Source: Phaeocystidibacter marisrubri
GTDB taxonomy: Bacteria; Bacteroidota; Bacteroidia; Flavobacteriales; Schleiferiaceae
DNA length: 64,000 nt
Direction: 5' to 3'
Assembly: GCF_008933165.1 (NCBI RefSeq)
Contig: NZ_WBVQ01000001.1
Span: 1,426,001-1,490,000 of the forward strand
The notes beneath the pieces were generated by a model that saw only the letters and a program-made list of their open reading frames with translations, made no database searches and was not told where the DNA came from. The position numbers and the translations under genes are program-made. Positions 1,291 through 46,246 of this stretch are shown here, piece after piece; within the stretch, counting starts at the first letter, position 1, and each line of letters begins with the position of its first letter.

Positions 1291-2004
1291 CTACTTAGGG
1301 AATCGATCTTCAAGAATGTGCTTTATATCATCCCAATGACGTCTGGACACGGGGATTTCAACCTCCCCTACACTCAAACTCTTGGAAGACCACCCCGTAA
1401 CATGATTCAAGTTGACGGCATAAGATCGATGAGTTTGCAGGAAATTAGAATCCTCTAATTCCTCCAATAAAACCTTGAGTGAACTGCGCTTCAGCCAAGT
1501 CTTATCGGCTGTGTGAAGTTCCGTGTAGATATTCTCAGCCTTCACAAAGCGAATCTCATCCACATTCACTCGGGAATAGGCATTGCCCTTTCTTACAACA
1601 ATAGAAGGCATAGATTCAGCGTGCAAATCCATGGTGGTCATCTCAATGGCCACAAACAGATCCTTTTCTGTAAATGGTTTCACCACATAAGCTCCGGGAC
1701 GTACTGCTTTTGCTTTTTGTAAGGTAGAAGAATCGGAATACGACGTTAAAAAGAAGAATGGAATCTGCTTCTCATACAGCAATTTAGCAATGTGAATTCC
1801 CTCTTCTCCACTCTTGAGATTGACATCAAGCATAGCCAAGTCAAAGCCTCCCGTGTAAATCCACTCTTCAGCCTTGGCAGTTGAATTGGCAATTCCCACC
1901 GGAAAATGCCCCAAGTCTAACAGCATCCCTTTTATGGATTCTGCAACAATGCGCTCATCTTCAACAATGAGTATTCTGAGACTCTTAGCGTACATCATTC
2001 CCAT
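1291..2004 (-). CDS. LytTR-family response regulator
   Basis: 237 aa. Residues 8-125 form a receiver domain: acidic pair E15/D16, phosphoacceptor D60 (LAMLDVNL), switch Thr in FFFLTS and conserved Lys in VVKPF. The C-terminal 100 residues (from about 135, RKGNAYSRVNVDEIRFV) match the LytTR DNA-binding domain, with FLQTHRSYAVNLNHV near the end. Such proteins bind direct repeats as dimers and activate target promoters. The first 20 bases overlap the end of the upstream histidine kinase gene, so the two are translationally coupled and surely form a two-component pair. ATGs at 1998 and 1995 are alternative starts. The target is unknown; the adjacent HYR exoprotein is a candidate by proximity only. 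Confidence 0.93.
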   Translation of the reverse strand: MGMMYAKSLRILIVEDERIVAESIKGMLLDLGHFPVGIANSTAKAEEWIYTGGFDLAMLDVNLKSGEEGIHIAKLLYEKQIPFFFLTSYSDSSTLQKAKAVRPGAYVVKPFTEKDLFVAIEMTTMDLHAESMPSIVVRKGNAYSRVNVDEIRFVKAENIYTELHTADKTWLKRSSLKVLLEELEDSNFLQTHRSYAVNLNHVTGWSSKSLSVGEVEIPVSRRHWDDIKHILEDRFPK

Positions 2005-3865
2005 TATATCTAACTATAGATCTAGAGAGCTGGTTCTCATAGACGTATTCAAAAGAGGCTCCTATGTCTTCTGAAAGAATTTGAACTAAGGACATGCCGA
2101 GAGTTTTATTCGCTGCCAAATCAAAGGTTGAAGGTATCCCTGGGCCATCATCGGTAACAGAAACCCACCAATTTCCAACTTCATCCATACTTCCCTCAAT
2201 TCGAAGCACACCCTTTCTGTTCTCTTTGAAGGCATACTTGAGAGAGTTGGTTAGAAGTTCATTGATGATCATGGCCAGAGGTAAGGCCGACTCAATACTA
2301 AGTGTCATTTCTTCACAATCAACCACCCAATCAATTCTGAGTTTCTCATCCTCATAAACTGACAATAATCGCATTAAGAGGTCTTCAAAGTAGGATTGAA
2401 GTTGAATCTGAACGATGTCATCCGTTTGATACAACCCTTCGTGAATCACAGACATAGCCTGAATACGGTTTCTCGTCTCCATGAGTGCGCTCTTCGCCTC
2501 TTCCGATGCAAGCGATCTTTCTTGGAGATAGATAAGACCACTCAAATTGGCCAAGTTGTTCTTCACGCGATGATGGAGTTCGCGATAGATCATATCCTTC
2601 TGCTCCAAGGTCTTGGTTAACCTGTTATTGGTTCGTTCAATCTGTACCCCTTGCTCCGTGAGTTTTTTGAGGTTCTTCTTTTGTTGAAGGAAGAGGTAAA
2701 TAATGATAGCAATCAAGGTGATCAAGAGAATATTCATTCCGATGAATATCTTCTTCATCCTGGATTCTTTCGTTAAGAGCTGTGACGTTTGGAAACGTTG
2801 GTTTTCTGATTCAAGTAAAGCGTTTCGAGCGGAAACTGCACCTAATTTAGCGGACATTTCCGCGATGAGATTACTGTTGTTATCTCGATACTCCAGCATC
2901 TTTAAGTCGTGATACTTTCGGATGGCAAACAGTGCCGAATCGTAATCTCCTTGAGCTTCAAAAACTACCCCTCGAGAATCCCAAACATTTGCTTGAACAC
3001 TCACCCAATTGTGTCTCACCGCTGGACGAAGCATCTTCAACAAGCAATAATCTGCGCTGTCGTATTTCTCATCCAACAAATAGTACCTCGCCATGTTGTG
3101 CAACGCACTGGTCCGATCTACCAAATGTCCAAGCTGATCATTGAGTCGATAAGACTTGCGGAAATACTGCATCGGATCCAAGTAATACTTTCCATTTACT
3201 CGGTTGTTGTAATGAACATATCCATAGTCTAAGTTCGCTGCCGCACTGTGCCAAGGGAGGTTCAAACTATCACTCCAGCGAATGGCCTTCTGAAGGAGCT
3301 CATCCGACTTCTCGTATTCATGATTGCCCATTTCTAGAAGCACCGCGGCATACCGATGCCAAAATCGAATGCGGGTTTCTGGATTCATTTCTGGCTCCAA
3401 TTCCTGCAAGAGCGGTACGTAATTGAGAGCTTCATCGTATTGATGCGTTGCACGGAGTTGCTCCATGTATTCTACATACACTTTGCTCAACAATTGAGGA
3501 TCGCCTTCTTCTGTGGCAATAGAGAGCGCTTCGGAAAGCATATCGAGGGAAAAGACATATTGTCCTTTCGATCGATAGATTTTACAAAGTAATAGGTATC
3601 GGTAAACTTGTAGGCTAGGTGTAACTGTTGAGTCGTTTACCGCTGCACGTTTTAATATCCGCTCTGATAAGTCGAAATCTCCGATGAGATAATTCGCCAA
3701 AGACTTCAAATATCCATCCTCAAAATTAGACATAGAGGTATCTGCCACCCACTGCTGTGGATGGAAATAAACATCTAATTGTCTCTGATCAAATGACTCT
3801 TGCGCGTGAGTACTAAAGGATAGACTGAGACTTAATAACAGTGTGAAGGTCAGGTCAATTTTCAC
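1985..3865 (-). CDS. TPR-containing membrane sensor histidine kinase (HisKA_2 type)
   Basis: I take a GTG start at 3865, giving 626 aa that begin with a signal peptide (VKIDLTFTLLLSLSLSFS, then HAQ). An ATG at 3979 would add 38 residues in front of the signal and almost abut the divergent gene. The periplasmic half contains several tetratricopeptide repeats (about residues 50-340). A single membrane helix lies near residues 365-390, followed by a short coiled coil. The phosphoacceptor is His432 in ELHHRVKNN, the HisKA_2 signature, followed by a HATPase domain with N-box INELLTNSLKYAF and G-box DDGPGI. This architecture normally pairs with LytTR regulators, as here. The ligand is unknown. Confidence 0.9.
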   Translation of the reverse strand: MKIDLTFTLLLSLSLSFSTHAQESFDQRQLDVYFHPQQWVADTSMSNFEDGYLKSLANYLIGDFDLSERILKRAAVNDSTVTPSLQVYRYLLLCKIYRSKGQYVFSLDMLSEALSIATEEGDPQLLSKVYVEYMEQLRATHQYDEALNYVPLLQELEPEMNPETRIRFWHRYAAVLLEMGNHEYEKSDELLQKAIRWSDSLNLPWHSAAANLDYGYVHYNNRVNGKYYLDPMQYFRKSYRLNDQLGHLVDRTSALHNMARYYLLDEKYDSADYCLLKMLRPAVRHNWVSVQANVWDSRGVVFEAQGDYDSALFAIRKYHDLKMLEYRDNNSNLIAEMSAKLGAVSARNALLESENQRFQTSQLLTKESRMKKIFIGMNILLITLIAIIIYLFLQQKKNLKKLTEQGVQIERTNNRLTKTLEQKDMIYRELHHRVKNNLANLSGLIYLQERSLASEEAKSALMETRNRIQAMSVIHEGLYQTDDIVQIQLQSYFEDLLMRLLSVYEDEKLRIDWVVDCEEMTLSIESALPLAMIINELLTNSLKYAFKENRKGVLRIEGSMDEVGNWWVSVTDDGPGIPSTFDLAANKTLGMSLVQILSEDIGASFEYVYENQLSRSIVRYNGNDVR

Positions 3866-3999
3866 AAGGGGGAAAATACAACGAAGTTTTATTCTACACT
3901 CATCGTTCGTAATATTACTATTAACAATCTTCCGTGGACTTCTCCCCGTCTCGCTTTTCCTGATTATATTCGACAGCACGCTACGCCATACTTTACTAC

Positions 4000-25606: not shown

Positions 25607-25754
25607 CCCTCAAAAATAGGCGATAAATGCACGCATACAAGGGCGAAACTCGGGAAATGCAAATCGTTCACCTGTACTCATCTCCGTTTGTAAGAGATGA
25701 CGCACAGGCTTGTTTTGGACGCCTTCAGATTGCCCATTCCATCTCGCTTTTCCG

Positions 25755-25762
25755 TACCTTCG
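25755..25762 (+). promoter_or_regulatory. -7-like box before hutI
   Basis: TACCTTCG, close to TAnnTTTG, lies 7 bp before the ATG at 25770. If used, the leader would be very short, or the ATG would be nearly leaderless. Confidence 0.4.
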
Positions 25763-25769
25763 TTGTACC

Positions 25770-27029
25770 ATGAAACGACTCCTAACAAACATCAAAAAGC
25801 TCGTCCACGTTGAGAATCAACCTGTTCCCTACCTCAAGGGAAAGGCAATGAACGACTTGACGAGCATAGACGACGCCTTTCTTGAAATTGAAGACGGCAA
25901 AATTGTTCGATTTGGGCCGATGACGGATCTACACGGATCTGACATTTCTGGAACCACAGAGTACCTCGATTGCACAGGACAATGGGTAATGCCTGGTCTT
26001 GTGGACTCACACACCCACCTGATCTTTGCAGAGCCGAGAGCACGTGAATTTGAAGATAGAATTCACGGTTTGACCTACGAGGAAATTGCAGCGAGAGGTG
26101 GAGGAATATTAAACAGTGCTGCGAAATTGGCAGAAATGCCAGAGGAGCAATTGTACGATGACGCCATGGCTCGCTTGCATGAAATGATTCAAACCGGAAC
26201 CACTGCCATTGAAATCAAGAGTGGCTATGGACTTTCAACGGAAGCTGAATTGAAGATGCTTCGAGTGGCTAAACGTATCAAGCGAAGAGCTCCAATTCCC
26301 GTTAAAATCACCTTTTTGGGTGCACATGCTATTCCACCAGAGTACAAAGAAAACCCCGATGGATATGTAGACTTGGTTATTGATGAAATGCTTCCAAAAG
26401 TAGTGGAAGAACGCTTGGCCGACTACATTGATGTATTCTGTGAAAAGGGATATTTCACCGTTGAACAAACCGATCGAATTCTCAAAGCTGGAATGGCCGC
26501 TGGACTACGTCCCAAAGTTCACGTCAACCAGTTTAACGCCATTGGAGGTATCCAAACCTGTGTAGAAAACAAGGCCATTTCTGTGGATCACTTGGAAGTG
26601 ATGGATGAAGGTGATTTTAAAGCATTGGCAAACTCCGATTGCATGCCAGTTGCGCTTCCTTCCTGCAGCTTCTTCCTCGGAATACCATACACTCCTGCTA
26701 GAAAAATCATAGATTCGAACCTCCCTCTTGCTTTGGCTACAGATTACAACCCTGGCAGCACCCCTTCAGGTAACCTCCTCTTTGTTTGGAGTTTAGCCTG
26801 TATTCAAATGAAACTCACACCTACAGAAGCACTGGCAGCACTCACTCACAATGCAGCCTACGCCTTGGAGTTGAACGACGAATTGGGTAGTATAGCGGTG
26901 GGGAAAACTGCGAACTTGCTCGTTTCAGAACCCATGGATAGTTTGGGGCATATTCCATATCACTTCGGAAGGAACAGCTTGAGCAGAGTTCTAATTAATG
27001 GAAATAAATACACACATCTCGAACCTTGA
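25770..27029 (+). CDS. hutI: Imidazolonepropionase
   Basis: 419 aa from the ATG at 25770 (MKRLLTNIKKLVHVEN), the expected N-terminus; an upstream frame start at 25710 is not supported by the family length. HutI hydrolyses imidazolone propionate to formiminoglutamate, step 3 of histidine degradation. It is an amidohydrolase: metal ligands in VDSHTHLIFAEPR, then EIKSGYGLS, LGAHAIPPEY, the VHVNQFNAIGG region and ATDYNPGSTP. It heads an operon with a stress protein, a HutG-like enzyme and FtcD. The hutH and hutU genes for the first two steps are not in the window. Confidence 0.95.
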   Translation: MKRLLTNIKKLVHVENQPVPYLKGKAMNDLTSIDDAFLEIEDGKIVRFGPMTDLHGSDISGTTEYLDCTGQWVMPGLVDSHTHLIFAEPRAREFEDRIHGLTYEEIAARGGGILNSAAKLAEMPEEQLYDDAMARLHEMIQTGTTAIEIKSGYGLSTEAELKMLRVAKRIKRRAPIPVKITFLGAHAIPPEYKENPDGYVDLVIDEMLPKVVEERLADYIDVFCEKGYFTVEQTDRILKAGMAAGLRPKVHVNQFNAIGGIQTCVENKAISVDHLEVMDEGDFKALANSDCMPVALPSCSFFLGIPYTPARKIIDSNLPLALATDYNPGSTPSGNLLFVWSLACIQMKLTPTEALAALTHNAAYALELNDELGSIAVGKTANLLVSEPMDSLGHIPYHFGRNSLSRVLINGNKYTHLEP

Positions 27030-27034
27030 AAAAA

Positions 27035-27859
27035 ATGGATCATCGCTTATTAGTCCCGGTTGACTTCTCTCAAATCTCCGTGAATGCCGTTAATTATGCA
27101 CTGGGTTTAGCACCAGCATTTAACTGTGGCGTTGTACTTCTTCATGTAGTAGACGACGAAGAATACAAGCAGAAAGGAGAGCGTGAAATGGAAAAGTTCC
27201 TCGCTCAGTTCGAAACGGATATTTCCATCAAAACCTTTGTTATTCCTGGGAATCTCTTTGAAGATATCGCAAAAGCTGCCGAACTCCTTGAAGTGTATAT
27301 GGTGGTGATGGGTACCTCTGGATTGAAAGGACTTCAATACCTCTTCGGATCGCATGCCCTTCGCATTGTGACCTCAGCAAGCGCTCCTTTCCTCATTACG
27401 CAAGAGCAACCACCGCGACCAAAAATCGAAACCATTGTTGTTCCTGTCGACTTGGCCAGCGAAGACAAACACATCTTGAGTTTAGCGCTTCAATCGGCAC
27501 GACTTTTTGATGCGAAGATTCACCTATTTGTGGCACACCACACCGATGAATTTAGCCGAAATAACACCTATCGCAACGAGAAATTCGCACATCGTTACTT
27601 AGACGATCACAACATTCATTACACCACTATTCACGCGGAAGGAAAGAACAGCTTCGACAAAGAAATTTTGGAGTATGCCGATCTCGTTTCAGCAGATATG
27701 ATCGCCGTAGTGAATCACAAAGAGACCGGATTCCTTAACGTCTTCGGAAAGAACTTTGATCAAAACTTAATTACGAACGACAACGGTATTCCTGTGTTGG
27801 TGATGAACGCTAACGAACACAAGAAGATTACCGACATCTTTGATGTATTCCAGGTATAA
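27035..27859 (+). CDS. Universal stress protein with two UspA domains
   Basis: 274 aa from the ATG at 27035 (MDHRLLVPVDFS). A TTG at 27026 overlapping the hutI stop is possible and adds three residues. Two UspA folds are in tandem: residues 3-125, ending in a GTSGLKGLQYLFGSHA nucleotide-loop-like segment, and residues 135-274, starting IETIVVPVDLAS. The second domain lacks a clear G-x2-G-x9-G loop (HKETGFLNVFGKNFDQNL). Tandem Usp proteins are usual in Bacteroidota. The 1-bp overlap with the next hut gene (TAATG) embeds it inside the histidine-degradation operon, which is odd. Confidence 0.9.
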   Translation: MDHRLLVPVDFSQISVNAVNYALGLAPAFNCGVVLLHVVDDEEYKQKGEREMEKFLAQFETDISIKTFVIPGNLFEDIAKAAELLEVYMVVMGTSGLKGLQYLFGSHALRIVTSASAPFLITQEQPPRPKIETIVVPVDLASEDKHILSLALQSARLFDAKIHLFVAHHTDEFSRNNTYRNEKFAHRYLDDHNIHYTTIHAEGKNSFDKEILEYADLVSADMIAVVNHKETGFLNVFGKNFDQNLITNDNGIPVLVMNANEHKKITDIFDVFQV

Positions 27860-28896
27860 TGCAAAACTTGCTTCACATATTTGATCGTCCATTTGTTGAA
27901 TCCCACACCTCTATTCGAGAAGGAGAGCACAAGATCGGACAAACCATTGCACTACTCGACCACGAAGGAGATCTTGTAGACGCGCTTCGCGATTGCAATG
28001 TGAAATTTGCCTTGATCTTTGTTCCTGAGGATATTGGCGTGCGCGCCAATCTTGGTCGGCCAGGCGCTTCCAAAACCTGGGAGCCCGCCCTGCGAGGAAT
28101 TTGCAACCTGCAAGACAACTATTACTTATCGGGTGCAGAAATGCTTCTGCTCGGTGCATTGGATGTGGACGACCTAATGAATGAAGCGGATAAAGCTGAT
28201 GCCTCCACACCAGAAGGGATTGCAAAACTTCGCGAGCTTACCTCGCAAGTAGACGATCGTCTCCGAACCATTCTTGCCCAGATTTACAAGGCTGATATCT
28301 TCCCCATCATCATTGGCGGTGGACACAATAACAGTTATCCAAACTTGGTGTCTTGGTGCGATGTGCACGACTCCGTGTTGAGTTGCATCAACCTAGACCC
28401 GCATGCGGACTACCGCAATATGGAAGGTAGACATAGCGGCAATGGTTTCCGCTATGCACACGAAGAAGGTGGATTGGATCGCTATGCCGTTGTTGGACTT
28501 CATGAAGGATACAACTCTCGCTCTATGGTCGACGAACTTCGTCACGATCCCGATTTGAGATACAGCACTTTTGAAGACATTGCCGTACGACGAATTCAAA
28601 CCTTTGAACAAGCCGTTGTAGACTCCCTTGACTTCGTTTCAGAAGGTCCTTTTGGTATTGAACTCGACCTTGACGCCATTCCGAGAATTCCGGTAAGTGC
28701 ATCTACCCCTACTGGGTTCTCGTTGGAACAAGCCAGACATTATGTGCACCTCGCAGCGAGCAGGCCCGAATCGGTTTACCTGCACATTTGCGAAGGCTCA
28801 GCTGGACTTGCAGAAGACCGACTTCTTCCTGAACTCAGTAAAACCATTGCGTCGCTAGTGGCAGATGGTATTAAAGCAAAGCGAAACATAGATTAA
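27859..28896 (+). CDS. hutG: Formimidoylglutamase-like enzyme (arginase/ureohydrolase family)
   Basis: 345 aa. The two-manganese site is complete: H156 in GGGHNNS, D180/H182/D184 in LDPHADYR, and D270/D272 in ELDLDAIPRI. This defines the arginase/agmatinase/formiminoglutamase superfamily. Substrate specificity is read from context: it lies between hutI-usp and ftcD, so hydrolysis of formiminoglutamate to glutamate and formamide is the best call. The N-terminal 100 residues (HIFDRPFVESHTSIREGEHK) are longer than in agmatinases. A guanidino substrate is the alternative. Confidence 0.87.
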   Translation: MQNLLHIFDRPFVESHTSIREGEHKIGQTIALLDHEGDLVDALRDCNVKFALIFVPEDIGVRANLGRPGASKTWEPALRGICNLQDNYYLSGAEMLLLGALDVDDLMNEADKADASTPEGIAKLRELTSQVDDRLRTILAQIYKADIFPIIIGGGHNNSYPNLVSWCDVHDSVLSCINLDPHADYRNMEGRHSGNGFRYAHEEGGLDRYAVVGLHEGYNSRSMVDELRHDPDLRYSTFEDIAVRRIQTFEQAVVDSLDFVSEGPFGIELDLDAIPRIPVSASTPTGFSLEQARHYVHLAASRPESVYLHICEGSAGLAEDRLLPELSKTIASLVADGIKAKRNID

Positions 28897-28900
28897 CACG

Positions 28901-29917
28901 ATGAAAACTCCACTTATTGAATGTGTGCCTAACATAAGCGAAGGCAGAAACCCGATGGTAATTGAACAGATCGCATCGGCAATTCGATCGGTGGAGGACG
29001 TGCATCTTCTTCACACCGATCCAGGAGAGGGAGCGAATCGCACGGTGTTTACCTTTGTGGGACCTCCTCTAGCCGTCATTGAAGCGGCTTTCAGGATGTA
29101 TGAAATCTGTGCGCGAACCATCGACATGCAGACCCAAAGCGGTACGCATCCTCGACAAGCTGCTGTGGATGTTTGTCCCCTTGTTCCATTGAGCAATATT
29201 TCTCTTGAAGAAACCTCTGAATATGCCCATCAGTTGGGCTATCGTATAGGTGAAGAATTGGGGATTCCAGGCTGGTTCTACGAAGCTAGCGCCACACGCG
29301 AGAGTAGAAAGAACCTAGCCACCCTAAGAGCAGGTGAATACGAAGCCCTGAGCAAAAAAGTGATTGATCCCGATTGGGCTCCTGATTTCGGCACCTTCTC
29401 AACCTCGATGTGGAAACGAAGCGGTGTAACCGTTATTGGAGCGCGCTATTTCCTCGTGGCTTATAACATCGATTTGGACACCGACGACACCGATGTTGCA
29501 CAACGCATCGCTGAAACCATTCGTGAAAGGGGCAAAACGATCTTCCACAACGATGGGAGTCGTGAACGCGTTCCTGGATTGCTCACGGGGGTAAAAGCAA
29601 TTGGTTGGCTCATTCCTGAATACGGAAACGCACAAGTGAGCTGTAACATCGTGAATACCCGTAAAACGAGTCCAGGCCGAGTATTTGCAGCCGTTAAAAA
29701 AGAGGCCAAAGATCTCGGAATCAAAGTTCTGGGCTCTGAACTCATCGGATTGATTCCGCAGGAAGTTCTGGTTCAAAGCGCTCGTGATCTAGGAGTGCCC
29801 GAACCCGGCGATAAGCCTTCCATGATGAATGCCGTTCACGTTCTTGGCTTAAATCACCGTAGACCTTTTGAAATTGAAGAAAGGGTCATTGAGCAAGTCA
29901 TGCAACGTAAGAGATAA
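28901..29917 (+). CDS. ftcD: Glutamate formimidoyltransferase
   Basis: 338 aa, transferase part only, without the cyclodeaminase domain of the bifunctional mammalian protein. It moves the formimino group of formiminoglutamate to tetrahydrofolate, yielding glutamate. Visible marks are IECVPNISEGRNP at the N-terminus, LLHTDPGEGANRTVFTF, SGTHPRQAAVDVCPLVP (with the active-site His) and YNIDLDTDD. It starts 4 bp after the HutG-like gene. The operon thus encodes two different ways to consume formiminoglutamate. Confidence 0.95.
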   Translation: MKTPLIECVPNISEGRNPMVIEQIASAIRSVEDVHLLHTDPGEGANRTVFTFVGPPLAVIEAAFRMYEICARTIDMQTQSGTHPRQAAVDVCPLVPLSNISLEETSEYAHQLGYRIGEELGIPGWFYEASATRESRKNLATLRAGEYEALSKKVIDPDWAPDFGTFSTSMWKRSGVTVIGARYFLVAYNIDLDTDDTDVAQRIAETIRERGKTIFHNDGSRERVPGLLTGVKAIGWLIPEYGNAQVSCNIVNTRKTSPGRVFAAVKKEAKDLGIKVLGSELIGLIPQEVLVQSARDLGVPEPGDKPSMMNAVHVLGLNHRRPFEIEERVIEQVMQRKR

Positions 29918-40022: not shown

Positions 40023-40038
40023 GTCGAATACAATCCTA

Positions 40039-40067
40039 AAGGTGGGCCATGGCTCACCTTTTTTTTT
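40039..40067 (+). terminator. TonB receptor terminator
   Basis: The stem AAGGTGGGCC/GGCTCACCTT (one wobble pair, 2-nt loop) is followed by a T-run to 40067. Confidence 0.82.
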
Positions 40068-40108: not shown

Positions 40109-41503
40109 ATGAGCGACTCTGATTTCCTCTTTATCCAAAACCTCTCTCCTTTTATCGACGTCCCTGAATCATCCCTTACATGGATGTATGAAGCAGGCGA
40201 AGTATACGAGCTTTCTAAAGGCGAGCACCTTTTTGAAAAGGACGCTCCGGCCAACTACATGCATATCATTATTGAAGGAACCGTTGATGTTTTCCGCGCT
40301 CTAGAGAGAGGCAAACAGTTTCTCACGGAAATGGGACCTACCACGCTCACAAGCCAATTGCCCTACTCCCGAATGAAAGTAGGTGGTGCCACGGGAGAAG
40401 TAGTGAGCGATAAAGCGCGATTTTTCCGTTTACACATCGACCATTTCCCAACGATGATCCAAGAGCATTACGAACTCACACGAGCCCTTGTGCAACACAT
40501 GACTTCTCGGGTCCGAAACTACACGCAGCTCCAAACGCAAAACGAAAAGTTGCTGGCATTGGGAAAGCTCAGTGCAGGATTGGCGCACGAATTGAACAAT
40601 CCCGCATCTGCGATGACACGCAGCGCCTCTGAATTATCGAAACACCTGCTCAAGTCGCCACAAGTTTTCAAGAAGCTCATGCGGGTTGAACTATCCGATG
40701 ATAAAATTGACGCCATTCAGGATATCCTGCAATCCAAGCTCGCTCAACCCAGTCCATCACTAGCCATGATGCAGCGCAACGAGTTGGAAGAAGACATGGC
40801 AGACTGGCTGGAGGCGCACGGTGAAGAAAACGGTTTCGAATACGCTGAACACCTTGTAGAATTTGGGTTCACTACTTCAGAAATGGAGGAACTCTATAAC
40901 TTGACTGGAGCAAATAACATTCGTTACACGCTGCACTGGTTAAACGACCAGCTTCAAGTGGTAAGAATGGTCTCTGAAATCGAAAACGCTTCCAAGCGAA
41001 TCGGTGATCTTGTGGGAAGTATCAAGCGGTATTCTCACATGGATAGAGATCTTGATCGACAGCCCGTAGATATCAATGCGGGTATTCAATCTACCCTGAC
41101 ACTGATGGCTCATAAATGCAGAAAGAACCGAGTAACAGTAGATGCCAAGCTCGATGAAAACCTCCCTCCCATCCAAGGCCTACCAGGGGAACTCAATCAA
41201 GTATGGACCAATTTGATTGACAATGCACTGGATGCCATGGAGATAAATGGAGGTTATTTACGCATTCAAACCCAGCAGGATGACCATCTCATCAAAGTGT
41301 CCGTAAGCGACACAGGACCGGGAATTCCCGAAGATGTGATGAAGCATATTTACGAACCCTTCTACACCACAAAACCTCAGGGAAAAGGAACCGGACTAGG
41401 ACTGGACATCACGCGTAAAATCATCGAACGTCACCACGCCCAAATCCGTGTAGAATCTCAGCCGGGAAACACAACATTTCGTATCACCTTCACTAAAGAA
41501 TGA
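40109..41503 (+). CDS. Soluble sensor histidine kinase with N-terminal cyclic-nucleotide-binding-like domain
   Basis: 464 aa without any membrane helix. Residues 15-125 form a cNMP/Crp-type beta-roll (GEHLFEKDAPANYMHIIIEG, TVDVFR). The phosphoacceptor H160 lies in GLAHELNNPASAM, the HisKA motif, and the ATPase domain (340-464) has NLIDNALDAM, DTGPGIP, FYTTKPQGKGTGLGLDI. The usual PRxA-phosphate cassette of cAMP-binding domains is not seen (LTSQLPYSR instead), so the ligand may not be cAMP. It overlaps the next gene by 4 bp; that gene encodes a receiver domain, its likely phosphorylation partner. Confidence 0.92.
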   Translation: MSDSDFLFIQNLSPFIDVPESSLTWMYEAGEVYELSKGEHLFEKDAPANYMHIIIEGTVDVFRALERGKQFLTEMGPTTLTSQLPYSRMKVGGATGEVVSDKARFFRLHIDHFPTMIQEHYELTRALVQHMTSRVRNYTQLQTQNEKLLALGKLSAGLAHELNNPASAMTRSASELSKHLLKSPQVFKKLMRVELSDDKIDAIQDILQSKLAQPSPSLAMMQRNELEEDMADWLEAHGEENGFEYAEHLVEFGFTTSEMEELYNLTGANNIRYTLHWLNDQLQVVRMVSEIENASKRIGDLVGSIKRYSHMDRDLDRQPVDINAGIQSTLTLMAHKCRKNRVTVDAKLDENLPPIQGLPGELNQVWTNLIDNALDAMEINGGYLRIQTQQDDHLIKVSVSDTGPGIPEDVMKHIYEPFYTTKPQGKGTGLGLDITRKIIERHHAQIRVESQPGNTTFRITFTKE

Positions 41504-43161
41504 ACACCAAACTACCTTATATATTTGCCGTTGACGATGACCCACAGGTGAGTCGAGCTATTCATCGAGACTTGAGAAATCGGTATAAATCCGATTACAA
41601 AGTATTGAGTTCAACGTCCATTTCCGAATCGATGGAAGCCCTTCAGGAACTGAAGAACAGCGGTGTTGAAATTGCACTCTTCCTCAGTGACCAACGCATG
41701 CCTGAAATGTTGGGCGTCGATTTTCTCGCAAAAGCCAGAAAGTTCTTCCCAAAAGCAAGGAGAGTATTACTCACCGCCTATTCCGATACGGAAGCAGCCA
41801 TTCGATCCATCAATGAAGCAGAGATCGATTACTACTTGCTAAAACCGTGGGACCCACCTGAAGAGCGACTGTATCCCATTTTAGATGACTTGCTCGACGA
41901 CTGGCAATCGGCCCGGGTTGAACGTCACCAAGGTCTGCGGGTTATCGGGTCCAATCATCACCCTAAATCCCACACAATTAAAGACTTCTTGAGTTCCAAC
42001 CTCTTTCCGTATTCGTGGATGGATATTCGAAGTGATGCGGCCATTGAATTGTTGGAAATCAACAAACTCGACCCACAAGGGCCACATGTATTCTTTGAGG
42101 ATGGTAGTTACATCACCAATCCTGAAGTACAGCACATTGCCGACAAAATCGGTCTACATTCCAGTGCCTCGAGTGAGATTTACGACTTGGCCATTATTGG
42201 AGCTGGTCCAGCGGGTTTGGCCGCAGGTGTTTACGGTGGATCCGAAGGATTGGAAACCTTGTTAATTGAACGACATGCACCTGGTGGACAAGCCGGAACG
42301 AGCTCCAGAATAGAAAACTATCTCGGCTTTCCCAAGGGCCTTTCCGGTCAAGATTTGTCCAGAAGAGCCATCACTCAGGCCACGCGATTTGGGGTTGAAT
42401 TCCTATCACCTGCTGAAGTTGAACACATCATTCCAGGTACTCCATTGAAAACGCTGAAATTGGCCAATGGAAATGACATTTACGCCAGATCCATCATTAT
42501 AACTACCGGTGTTTCCTATCGTCAGTTGGATACCCCAGGCGTGGTGAAATTAACAGGTGCAGGAGTATACTACGGCGCAGCTACCACAGAGGCAGCCACT
42601 TGTGCGGATGCTGATGTCTTTGTAATTGGTGGAGGAAATTCAGCGGGGCAGGGAGCCGTATACCTCAGTCGATTTGCCAAGAAAGTCCACATTGTTGTCC
42701 GTAAAAACGACTTGAGCTCTAGCATGAGTAGCTATCTCATCGATCAAATTAACTCCATAGAAAACATCGAATTAATTGGATCTCATCAACTCGTGGAGGC
42801 AAAAGGAGACCAACAACTCCGCTCCCTTATTTTTGAGAATATTCATACAGGTGAACAAAGAGAATACAACGCGAAGGCACTATTCATTTTCATTGGAGCC
42901 AAACCTTACACCGAGTGGATTACAGCCCCCATACTGCGTGATGAGAAGGGATTCATCTGTACTGGAGTGGATTTACTCAATGCCCCAGAATTTATTCAGA
43001 ATTGGGACTTAAGGCGCGATCCTTATCCCCTAGAAACCAGTATTCCTGGCATCTTTGCCGCTGGTGATGTGAGAAGTGGTGCCATGAATCGAGTCGCTTC
43101 TGCCGTTGGCGAAGGAGCCATGGCTGTAAGTTTTGTTCACCGATATTTAAGTGAAATATGA
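41500..43161 (+). CDS. Receiver domain fused to a thioredoxin-reductase-like FAD/NAD(P)H oxidoreductase
   Basis: 553 aa. Residues 5-130 are a receiver domain: acidic DDD at 12-14, phosphoacceptor D64 (LSDQRMPEM), Thr in LLTAYSD and Lys in LLKPWD. Residues 150-222 form a small linking domain. Residues 228-553 are a thioredoxin-reductase-like flavoprotein: GAGPAG (234-239), ENYLGFP, the second dinucleotide site GGGNSAGQ (377-384) and FAAGDVRSG near the end. The redox CxxC of true thioredoxin reductase (CATCDG) is replaced by TTEAATCAD with a lone C368. It therefore probably transfers electrons to something other than thioredoxin, or works as a redox sensor. Such fusions are known in several phyla; their role is not established. 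Confidence 0.9.
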   Translation: MNTKLPYIFAVDDDPQVSRAIHRDLRNRYKSDYKVLSSTSISESMEALQELKNSGVEIALFLSDQRMPEMLGVDFLAKARKFFPKARRVLLTAYSDTEAAIRSINEAEIDYYLLKPWDPPEERLYPILDDLLDDWQSARVERHQGLRVIGSNHHPKSHTIKDFLSSNLFPYSWMDIRSDAAIELLEINKLDPQGPHVFFEDGSYITNPEVQHIADKIGLHSSASSEIYDLAIIGAGPAGLAAGVYGGSEGLETLLIERHAPGGQAGTSSRIENYLGFPKGLSGQDLSRRAITQATRFGVEFLSPAEVEHIIPGTPLKTLKLANGNDIYARSIIITTGVSYRQLDTPGVVKLTGAGVYYGAATTEAATCADADVFVIGGGNSAGQGAVYLSRFAKKVHIVVRKNDLSSSMSSYLIDQINSIENIELIGSHQLVEAKGDQQLRSLIFENIHTGEQREYNAKALFIFIGAKPYTEWITAPILRDEKGFICTGVDLLNAPEFIQNWDLRRDPYPLETSIPGIFAAGDVRSGAMNRVASAVGEGAMAVSFVHRYLSEI

Positions 43162-44084
43162 TTATTTATAAAACCAACAAGCACTGGTTTAAAGACATAG
43201 GGCATCTAGCGAAGAGTTGGACCATGATCAAAGTGATGCGAGCCGTCTTGATGATTGGAGCATTCACCACTGTTGTAGTCCTCGTACATACCTATGTGCA
43301 CGAACTCAATTTGCGCGATGTTGGCGGGGTGTTTTCCCTACTCGGGATTGTCCTTTCCATCCTCCTGGTATTCCGAACCAATTCAGCCTACGACCGATGG
43401 TGGGAAGGACGTAAACAATGGGGGGCTTTGGTGAACAATTGCAGAAACCTTGCCCTCTACTGTTATGTGCATCTTCCTTCAGATGATCGTCCGACGAAAA
43501 TGCGCCTTGCCCGCGACATCGGGAATTTCTGTTTGGCCTTTGTTGAACACTTGCGAGAAGGAACCAAAACTGAGGATTTGAAAGGACTCAACGACGTTGA
43601 AATAGCTCGTTATCAATCTGTTCAACACATTCCCAACGAGATCTCAAAAGAGATTTATGCCACCATTCATGAATCGTATAAAGACGGTCGAATTACAGGA
43701 GAAGACCTCCTGAACATTCATCAAATGCACAAAGCCTTACTCGATATTCTCGGTGCATGTGAAAGAATCAAGAAAACGCCTATTCCTTTTAGCTACAACG
43801 TTTACCTTAAAGTATTCATCACCGCATACGGCTTGCTTCTCCCCTTTGCCCTACTCAGTACTTTGGGCTTTTGGACCATTCCCGCAGTGATGTTCGTCTT
43901 CTTTGCTTTTATCGGAGTAGAGATGATGGGTGAAGAGATTGAAGATCCCTTCGGATTGGATTGCAATGACCTTCCAACCGGAACCATCGCAAACACCATT
44001 CGAGAAAATGTGTTTAACTTGATGGAAGTACCTCATGAACATTGGGAAAAACATCCTGAAGTTCTATACGAGAAAGTTTTTTAA
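43158..44084 (+). CDS. Bestrophin-family (UPF0187) ion channel-like membrane protein
   Basis: 308 aa with about four membrane helices. The bestrophin core is clear: LVFRTNSAYDRWWEGRKQWG near 78-97, followed by NNCRNLA and, near the end, the GEEIEDPFGLDCNDLP Ca-clasp-like acidic segment. Bacterial homologs form pentameric channels for cations or anions. It overlaps the REC-oxidoreductase gene by 4 bp (ATGA), so synthesis is coupled. Why a channel sits in a redox-signalling and thiol-histidine operon is unknown; it may pass bicarbonate, anions or a thiol compound. Confidence 0.92.
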   Translation: MIIYKTNKHWFKDIGHLAKSWTMIKVMRAVLMIGAFTTVVVLVHTYVHELNLRDVGGVFSLLGIVLSILLVFRTNSAYDRWWEGRKQWGALVNNCRNLALYCYVHLPSDDRPTKMRLARDIGNFCLAFVEHLREGTKTEDLKGLNDVEIARYQSVQHIPNEISKEIYATIHESYKDGRITGEDLLNIHQMHKALLDILGACERIKKTPIPFSYNVYLKVFITAYGLLLPFALLSTLGFWTIPAVMFVFFAFIGVEMMGEEIEDPFGLDCNDLPTGTIANTIRENVFNLMEVPHEHWEKHPEVLYEKVF

Positions 44085-44105: not shown

Positions 44106-45278
44106 ATGAGTTTACGCGAGCGCTATTTTTCTATTCGCGATAGGACACTTGCTATTTGCAAACCCCTAAGCATTGAAGACCACCTCATGCAACCCATAAT
44201 GGATGTGAGTCCGCCTAAATGGCACCTGGCACACACCACCTGGTTCTTCGAAAGCTTCATCCTGAACAAGTATGTGGAAGGATATGTAGTGTTTGACGAG
44301 CGGTTCCCCTTCTATTTCAACAGCTACTACCAGAGCATGGGGGAACGACAAGAGCGGGACAAACGAGGTTTACTCACTCGCCCTACCACCGAAAAAATCT
44401 ACGCATACCGCGAGTACGTAGATGAACATATGTCGGAGTTATTAAAAACACCTTCAGATGTCATCTCTGGACTTGTGGAAATCGGTCTTAATCACGAACA
44501 ACAGCACCAAGAGTTGTTGTTAACCGATATCAAATACAGCCTCTATTCACAACCGTTTCACCCCGTGTATAGCGCAGAGCCACTCATCCAAGATGCTCGA
44601 GCTCTGCCCAGTGAATCGAAAGAGTGGATTTCCATCCCCGAAGGAACCTATCAGATTGGACATGACGAAGATGGATTTGCCTTTGACAATGAATGTAAGA
44701 GACACACCGTCTACCTTCACAAATACTCCATTTCTAGCTCACCCATCACTAATGGTGAATTCATCGAATTCATTGAATCGGGCGGTTATTCCCAGTTCCA
44801 ACATTGGCACGATGAAGGTTGGGCATGGGTGAATAGAGAGAACGCACAACTACCTCTCTACTGGGAGAAGCAAGGCGATGCGTATATGCACTTCACCTTG
44901 CGCGGACTTGAGCCGGTAGATCCCAATGCTATACTCCAACACGTCAACTACTACGAAGCTGCGGCTTATGCAGCTTGGCGCGGAGGCCGACTACCTACCG
45001 AAGCGGAATGGGAAGTGGCAAGCGAACATTTCAGTTGGGGAGACGTTTGGGAATGGACCAATAGTGCTTATCTACCCTATCCCGGATATCAAAAACCAGA
45101 GGGCGCCATTGGAGAATACAACGGGAAGTTCATGATCAATCAAATGGTATTGAGAGGAGCTTCCATAGCAACATCACCTAATCACAGCCGACACACCTAC
45201 AGAAACTTCTTTCACCCCCATCTTCAATGGCAATTTAGCGGGATGAGATTGGTGAAAGATGAAACGCAAAAATTATGA
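44106..45278 (+). CDS. egtB: EgtB-like sulfoxide synthase (ergothioneine pathway)
   Basis: 390 aa. The N-terminal DinB-like part has the iron ligands H43 (WHLAHTTWFFES) and H130/H134 (GLNHEQQHQELL). The C-terminal formylglycine-generating-enzyme-like fold (from about 175, SIPEGTYQIGHDEDGFAF) ends with WEWTNSAYLPYPGY, GGRLPTEAEWE and FFHPHLQWQFSGMRL. EgtB enzymes join hercynine to a thiol (cysteine or gamma-glutamyl-cysteine) with oxygen, forming the C-S bond. No EgtA, EgtC or EgtE is in the operon, so a direct cysteine-using type is possible. The stop overlaps egtD by 4 bp. Confidence 0.92.
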   Translation: MSLRERYFSIRDRTLAICKPLSIEDHLMQPIMDVSPPKWHLAHTTWFFESFILNKYVEGYVVFDERFPFYFNSYYQSMGERQERDKRGLLTRPTTEKIYAYREYVDEHMSELLKTPSDVISGLVEIGLNHEQQHQELLLTDIKYSLYSQPFHPVYSAEPLIQDARALPSESKEWISIPEGTYQIGHDEDGFAFDNECKRHTVYLHKYSISSSPITNGEFIEFIESGGYSQFQHWHDEGWAWVNRENAQLPLYWEKQGDAYMHFTLRGLEPVDPNAILQHVNYYEAAAYAAWRGGRLPTEAEWEVASEHFSWGDVWEWTNSAYLPYPGYQKPEGAIGEYNGKFMINQMVLRGASIATSPNHSRHTYRNFFHPHLQWQFSGMRLVKDETQKL

Positions 45279-46246
45279 ATAAGACCACAGCTCTGAACGG
45301 ATTTGCGAAAGATATCCATCAGGGACTTACTTCTACTCCAAAGACACTTCCGTCTAAGTACTTCTATGATTCCGACGGCGATAAGCTGTTCCAGTCTATT
45401 ATGTCCATGCCCGAATACTACTTAACGGATTGTGAATTTGAAATTTTCAACCATCAAGCGAGTGCAATTTTAGATGCCATTGCTCCCCACAAAAGGCCCT
45501 TCAATTTGATTGAACTTGGAGCGGGAGATGGCAGTAAAACCAGGGTGTTGCTCGACCACTTTCAGAAAGCTGGAGTAGATTTCACCTATTGTCCGGTAGA
45601 CATCTCTCCAGACATCCTCAATGAACTCGAAGAGAAGCTAAGAGAAGAACTGCCCAACATCCAAGTTGAGTTACTTGCTGGCGATTATTTCGAACTCCTC
45701 AACAACAAAATTGGCAAGTTTGAAGGCAGAAATGTCTTCTTGTTTCTTGGAAGCACCATTGGAAATTACTCCTATAAAAAGTCCATAGAATTCCTTCAGA
45801 AGTTGCGAGCGGGAATGCGCGGAGAAGATCAACTTTTAATGGGGGCTGATTTAAAGAAAGATCCCTCAATTATTCTAAGTGCATATAATGACGCACACGG
45901 CATCACCAAAGAGTTTAACTTCAATCTACTCCGCAGAATTAATCGTGAACTAGACGCTGATTTCAACGAAGCGAACTGGATGCATTGGCCTACATACAAT
46001 CCCGAAACAGGTGAAGCTCGAAGCTATCTGGTCTCCCGTGTGAAGCAAACCGTTCACATGAAGGCCATAGATGAAGTGTATCACTTTAAGGCTTGGGAAG
46101 AAGTACACACGGAAATTTCCAGAAAGTTCGGATTAGACGACTTACAACAACTGGCCAATGAGACCGGATTTGAAGTGGTCGATCATTTCTTTGACTGTAA
46201 ACACTACTTTGTAGATACGCTCTGGAAGCCTACTAATCACTCCTAA
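45275..46246 (+). CDS. egtD: L-histidine N-alpha-methyltransferase
   Basis: 323 aa. It trimethylates histidine to hercynine with SAM, the first step of ergothioneine synthesis. The N-terminus TPKTLPSKYFYDSDGDKLFQ with ITxxPEYYLT-like MSMPEYYLTDCE is the family mark. The SAM site reads NLIELGAGDGSKTRVLLDHF, and FLGSTIGNY and MGADLKKDPSIILSAYND follow. The length is normal. It is translationally coupled to egtB. Confidence 0.95.
   Translation: MNKTTALNGFAKDIHQGLTSTPKTLPSKYFYDSDGDKLFQSIMSMPEYYLTDCEFEIFNHQASAILDAIAPHKRPFNLIELGAGDGSKTRVLLDHFQKAGVDFTYCPVDISPDILNELEEKLREELPNIQVELLAGDYFELLNNKIGKFEGRNVFLFLGSTIGNYSYKKSIEFLQKLRAGMRGEDQLLMGADLKKDPSIILSAYNDAHGITKEFNFNLLRRINRELDADFNEANWMHWPTYNPETGEARSYLVSRVKQTVHMKAIDEVYHFKAWEEVHTEISRKFGLDDLQQLANETGFEVVDHFFDCKHYFVDTLWKPTNHS

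Follow-up and report, generated by a model that had tools for sequence, protein, structure and literature searches.

Proteins in which a receiver domain is joined to a member of the thioredoxin reductase (TrxR) family, in a Mycobacterium-like combination, were mentioned by Galperin and co-workers in 2018 (PMC5847659), and the passages of that paper that deal with these regulators give no function, lost CxxC motif, glutaredoxin-like domain or partner genes. The same join of receiver and TrxR-family part is found in a protein encoded within the 64,000-nucleotide stretch of Phaeocystidibacter marisrubri analysed here (contig NZ_WBVQ01000001.1, positions 1,426,001 to 1,490,000; hereafter, the window), in which a glutaredoxin-like domain lies between the two. 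A first-pass annotation of the window had placed the open reading frame (ORF) exactly where we recovered it (Table 1) and had rightly described an N-terminal receiver ahead of a TrxR-like half; the glutaredoxin-like domain, the gene run in which the ORF lies and its partner genes were all absent from that annotation. Whilst the fusion of receiver and TrxR is widespread and already in print, the loss of cysteines from both redox parts and the partner genes appear to be unreported; no account of either was found in the open-access papers searched.

Several other described systems resemble the window protein in part. It has the fold and the flavin adenine dinucleotide (FAD) and NAD(P)H motifs of low-molecular-mass TrxR, but lacks its CxxC, carries receiver and glutaredoxin-like domains in front and is set apart by 48 family-specific positions. 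AhpF likewise has a thioredoxin-fold domain ahead of a TrxR part, whereas the window protein is without CxxC in either part, begins with a receiver and contains one small redox-fold domain. In fold and profile the middle domain comes closest to mycoredoxin Mrx1 and the glutaredoxins, which have cysteines where mostly Ser is found here. The TrxR-like ferredoxin/flavodoxin NADP+ reductases, as treated in the relevant part of PMC10294844, share a CxxC-less TrxR fold with the window protein, yet have no receiver or glutaredoxin domain and match our model less well. Finally, the passages of PMC10224563 that concern KefF describe a flavoprotein gene beside and overlapping that of KefC, the product of which is needed for full KefC activation, although this does not depend directly on its activity as an enzyme. 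An NAD(P)H flavoprotein gene overlaps a transporter gene in the window also, and a Kef-type antiporter adjoins some relatives; however, KefF is a flavin mononucleotide quinone reductase of another fold, the window protein being a Pyr_redox_2 protein of TrxR fold, for which we infer transporter control.

Homologues of the flavoprotein scoring above 300 bits were collected from 40 relatives (eight genomes at full length, the window's own included), at least 80 named loci and 296 genomes of the phylum. This set was extended with 15 more stretches of phylum-sample genomes and with 13 loci on plasmids of cyanobacteria, Deinococcus, Actinomycetota and Pseudomonadota; once identical rows had been removed, 139 of 145 sequences were left. 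Alignment with 14 canonical TrxRs from this and related genomes (13 unique sequences, each bearing CxxC: CAVC in 6, CATC in 4 and CAIC in 3) placed the two canonical columns at residues 360 and 363 of the window protein, where A-A-T-T is found within YYGAATTEA. Not one of the 139 homologues had Cys at either slot, the commonest fillings being AAMT (52) and AATT (38). The first-pass annotation had recognised the missing CxxC, though it read the slot as TTEAATCAD with one Cys, a register that starts two residues late; the Cys in question, Cys368, lies five residues past the second slot, and is Cys in 101 of the 139 homologues, the other 38 having Phe (26), Thr, Val, Tyr, Ser or Ile. The whole flavoprotein contains only one other cysteine, at position 487. 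No cysteine column exceeded 73% Cys among the homologues, none was better kept than that of Cys368, and a search of the sequence for another Cys pair that might sit at the flavin returned none. Lacking any conserved cysteine, such a protein could not exchange dithiols as TrxR, AhpF and glutaredoxin do, which agrees with the earlier suggestion that the normal handover of electrons to thioredoxin would not occur.

The cofactor sites noted in the first pass are retained in the window protein (GAGPAG from residue 234, GGGNSAGQ from 377 and the FAD end motif GDVR from 522) and throughout the family (GxGPxG in 139/139, GDxR in 138/139), and Pfam assigned Pyr_redox_2 (PF07992) to residues 228-539 with 116.4 bits. 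A further 48 positions of the TrxR part are occupied by the same residue in 93% or more of family members, a residue shared by no more than 2 of the 14 canonical rows, indicating that the flavoprotein is constrained and not decaying. Of the basic residues that canonical TrxRs have by the 2'-phosphate of NADP, Arg401 (137/139) and Lys/Arg402 (108/139) are kept and a third is lost. Scores against curated models were below the cut-offs in each case: 233.1 bits against 343.45 for thioredoxin reductase (TIGR01292), 141.7 against 502.9 for AhpF (TIGR03140) and 57.9 against 339.9 for the bacillithiol disulfide reductase YpdA (TIGR04018).

An identity as the ordinary thioredoxin reductase was rejected, a separate CxxC-bearing TrxR being encoded in the same genome (G000:C1:1589313). 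The match to this second enzyme (L002; G000:C1:1589313-1590266) contains one TAG, yet an uninterrupted ORF of 326 amino acids is read there. Decay of a single gene was also rejected, since the cysteine loss is family-wide and approximately 60% identity is kept, as was a single-cysteine mechanism through the non-conserved Cys368. A 56-row tree (42 hand-picked family members and the 14 canonical sequences) had a fully supported branch between the family and the canonical TrxRs, many inner branches being weak, and forms with a receiver, with a cyclic nucleotide (cNMP)-binding domain or with neither all fell inside the family.

The middle domain was recognised through its relatives. PF00462 (Glutaredoxin) matched this domain in five of eight homologues scanned (best 8.9e-4), with no PF00462 match in the window's own segment, and a profile of the eight middle-domain sequences matched the M. 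tuberculosis mycoredoxin 2lqo at an E-value of 1.7e-7. A model of the isolated domain, built from 29 rows (predicted local distance difference test score, pLDDT, 83; predicted template modelling score, pTM, 0.69), again gave 2lqo as the best Foldseek match (1.4e-4), with glutaredoxins and NrdH lower. The glutaredoxin active-site motif is CPYC; at its position the family has S-P-K-S and the window protein HPKS (154-157), with Ser at 154 in 132/139 and at 157 in 113/139 homologues, and Cys in none and three, respectively. Profile and model alike thus predict a glutaredoxin fold devoid of the catalytic Cys. With CxxC and CPYC both missing across the family, the two redox motifs have gone together, which speaks for a long-standing family that lacks a thiol relay and not for a one-off defect.

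The receiver carries the full set of response-regulator residues (Asp12, Asp13, Asp64, Thr92 and Lys115), and among 134 aligned rows, which include a few cNMP forms that are not receivers, Asp64 and Thr92 were each kept in 131 and Lys115 in 129. The gene immediately upstream encodes a histidine kinase, and neighbour counts from the 94 of 144 loci that have flanks of 4 kb or longer on each side, from which cluster profiles were also built, located a kinase gene in 82, within 1 kb in 78. Both the conservation of the receiver residues and the constancy of the kinase are in keeping with phosphorylation control. In 117 unique kinase homologues His160 and Asn372 were invariant and the cNMP-like domain held a nearly fixed G82-x-L-P-x-S-R88; this differs from the usual cyclic-nucleotide cassette, and the ligand may therefore be something else. 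We consider it highly probable that the protein is a thiol-free, kinase-linked flavoprotein; its recurrence beside the same kind of kinase, with both cysteine motifs lost, implies that redox signals are probably handled without the usual thiol chemistry.

The whole protein was modelled from 50 rows (pLDDT 82, pTM 0.65), and its best match was AhpF by Foldseek and TrxR by VIA-align, families missing from the list of structural matches not being counted as excluded. In the flavin-reducing form of TrxR, NADPH is brought to the flavin and CxxC is not used. The modelled TrxR part superposed on this form of the L. lactis enzyme (5mh4) at 2.1 Å over 297 residues (Z 33.4), and on the flavin-oxidising form of the same enzyme (5mjk) at 7.8 Å, so that the prediction adopts the flavin-reducing pose. 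Together with the kept cofactor motifs, this pose is consistent with NAD(P)H reducing FAD directly, and this part of the chemistry has probably been retained.

In the window, the genes for the kinase, the flavoprotein, a bestrophin-family channel, EgtB and EgtD follow one another with 4-nucleotide overlaps and a single gap of 21 nucleotides, and a terminator-like stem likely marks the upstream edge of the run. Beside the kinase, the commonest partner in the 94 full-flank loci was a small protein with a zf-UBP domain (37 loci, 33 within 1 kb), a domain best known for binding the ubiquitin tail; EgtB and EgtD were each present in 10 and bestrophin in 8. When the first downstream gene was recorded, passing over kinase and small zf-UBP genes, 56 genes within 350 nucleotides were obtained from 56 loci (31 loci, mostly short, had been excluded beforehand and the remainder had no such gene), of which 13 encoded a bestrophin and 4, the next most frequent, a topoisomerase. 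Neighbours such as the topoisomerase, an AraC regulator and short-chain-dehydrogenase-like proteins were taken to reflect lineage or chance. In three loci a Kef-type antiporter (Na_H_Exchanger and TrkA_N) carries the zf-UBP zinc finger at its C-terminus, and LtrA is found near the flavoprotein gene in Nostoc and Deinococcus. On Rhodococcus and Streptomyces plasmids, a cNMP form of the flavoprotein closes a run of dnaK, grpE, dnaJ, cbpM, clpB, trxA and zf-UBP genes (L144:1-7305 and L146:1-7302).

The reading that we prefer, and to which we give about an even chance, is that a dedicated two-component system has the flavoprotein as its output arm, which works through NAD(P)H and flavin independently of thiols. 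The kinase would phosphorylate Asp64 of the receiver, FAD would be reduced directly by NAD(P)H in the flavin-reducing pose, and either the electrons or the flavin's redox state would then act without a dithiol, through a non-thiol acceptor or by altered binding of a partner. In the window operon this partner would be the bestrophin channel, to which the glutaredoxin-like domain would dock. Such a KefF-like role is favoured by the recurrence of membrane transport genes (bestrophin, the antiporter-zf-UBP fusions and LtrA in Nostoc), and control of the bestrophin channel itself is put forward only tentatively. Several points weigh against this proposal. Only a minority of loci have bestrophin as the neighbour of the flavoprotein gene, and the majority are without an adjoining transporter; a common operon position is no proof of interaction; and zf-UBP, the commonest small partner, was not found in this genome. 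The predictor may favour the flavin-reducing pose by habit, and its confidence is low (pLDDT below 50) at residues 262-269, close to the flavin motif. More doubtful still is the extension to a widespread two-component class in which a thiol-free glutaredoxin-TrxR flavoprotein gates membrane transport (through bestrophin in the window, and through the antiporter-zf-UBP fusion or LtrA in relatives) according to the NAD(P)H redox state and a kinase signal, with ties to ergothioneine and with zf-UBP as a docking adaptor; were it true, that domain would gain a bacterial role.

One alternative is a soluble reductase, resembling the CxxC-less TrxR-like reductases, in which NAD(P)H would reduce FAD and FADH2 would pass electrons to ferredoxin, flavodoxin, a haem protein, quinone or oxygen whilst the receiver tunes the rate; the first-pass idea of a phosphorylation-gated oxidase falls here. 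The kept cofactor motifs, the lost CxxC and the flavin-reducing pose all suit this alternative, and CxxC-less reductases with such acceptors are on record (PMC10294844, in the part that treats them). However, the ferredoxin NADP+ reductase fold 8c16 fits the model less well (Z 27.1, 3.4 Å) than 5mh4, no ferredoxin or flavodoxin gene occurs among the listed neighbour families, and the conserved glutaredoxin-like domain is left unexplained; we regard this alternative as rather unlikely. A pseudoenzyme, binding FAD and NAD(P)H as mere ligands and reporting the nucleotide pool to the kinase or zf-UBP partners without turnover, would account for the joint loss of both redox motifs, the constancy of the kinase and the missing third basic residue of the NADP site; since few positions are as constrained as the glycine motifs and the residues surrounding the flavin, we consider this a slightly less likely option.

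Co-occurrence across the 296 phylum genomes bears upon a third alternative, that the flavoprotein acts in ergothioneine metabolism, either by reducing an oxidised form of ergothioneine or by controlling its synthesis together with EgtB and EgtD. The flavoprotein gene was identified in 44 genomes (E-values up to 1e-100), zf-UBP in 30 and EgtB in 81, genomes that scored under the curated cut-offs (two for zf-UBP, one for EgtB) having been left out. The flavoprotein gene was accompanied by zf-UBP in 27 genomes (4.5 expected), 21 of 31 zf-UBP genes lying within 5 kb of it, and by EgtB in 39 (12 expected); at genus level the values were 16/19 (3.9 expected) and 24/29 (11 expected), respectively, these tests treating genomes and genera as independent, which they are not. 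Aerobic respiration was discarded as the cause of the EgtB association because COX1 is present in 281 of the 296 genomes and cannot separate the EgtB carriers; lineage and genome size are possible confounders. Besides this association, an ergothioneine role is favoured by EgtB and EgtD in the window gene run, the EgtB there being this genome's sole match in the phylum-wide search, and by the gene orders flavoprotein-EgtB (L014) and flavoprotein-zf-UBP-EgtB (G286) in relatives. Nonetheless, EgtB is within the fetched flanks of so few loci and is missing from 5 of the 44 gene-carrying genomes, and we know of no precedent for disulfide reduction without any cysteine, leaving this role improbable. 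Chemistry by Cys368 alone, or by a partner's cysteine, is very unlikely despite the Cys present there in most homologues, given that some of the homologues without it have the same kinase neighbour and that the YpdA score is so far below its cut-off.

Returning to the preferred reading of a kinase-linked, thiol-independent flavin output, its consequences would extend to annotation. In public records, relatives are called thioredoxin-disulfide reductase, cyclic nucleotide-binding domain-containing thioredoxin-disulfide reductase or FAD-dependent oxidoreductase, despite the missing thiol residues in both redox parts; should the reading hold, many of these names would be mistaken, and the output of a common two-component system would be flavin redox chemistry and not DNA binding. 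Culturable genera that carry the gene include Mucilaginibacter, Chitinophaga and Dyadobacter, in which the recurring partners (kinase, zf-UBP, Kef-type antiporter, bestrophin and ergothioneine genes) make its function testable.

Table 1. Coordinates of the flavoprotein gene, its domains and associated features (window positions unless a locus is named)
Feature	Position	Strand	Basis or remark
Receiver / glutaredoxin-like / TrxR-like flavoprotein gene	41500..43161	+	ORF of 553 amino acids
Receiver domain, residues 8-120	41521..41859	+	Pfam PF00072 Response_reg, 49.8 bits
Glutaredoxin/mycoredoxin-like domain, residues ~145-222	41932..42165	+	PF00462 in homologues, 2lqo matches
TrxR-like FAD/NAD(P)H part, residues 228-552	42181..43155	+	PF07992, superposition on 5mh4
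Slot of the TrxR CxxC, residues 360-363, A-A-T-T	42577..42588	+	Alignment with canonical TrxRs
Histidine kinase, cNMP-binding-like N-terminal domain	40109..41503	+	PF00027 31.3 bits, PF02518 88.7 bits; 4-nucleotide overlap with flavoprotein gene
Bestrophin-family channel gene	43158..44084	+	PF25539, 265 bits; 4-nucleotide overlap with flavoprotein gene
EgtB, ergothioneine biosynthesis	44106..45278	+	TIGR03440, 522 bits (cut-off 360)
EgtD, histidine methyltransferase	45275..46246	+	TIGR03438, 303.5 bits (cut-off 290.9); 4-nucleotide overlap with EgtB
Terminator-like stem upstream of kinase gene	40038..40061	+	10-pair stem and T run; count of such sites not above shuffles
Kef-type antiporter-zf-UBP fusions adjoining flavoprotein gene	L155:6668-8698, L157:3078-5102, L160:1767-3812		

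Elsewhere in the window, inspection by eye identified a run at 25710-29917 resembling histidine degradation (imidazolonepropionase-like, formiminoglutamase-like and formiminotransferase-like), with a universal-stress-type gene inside, and, at 1291-3979, a response regulator with a LytTR-looking end adjoining a kinase with repeats in front.

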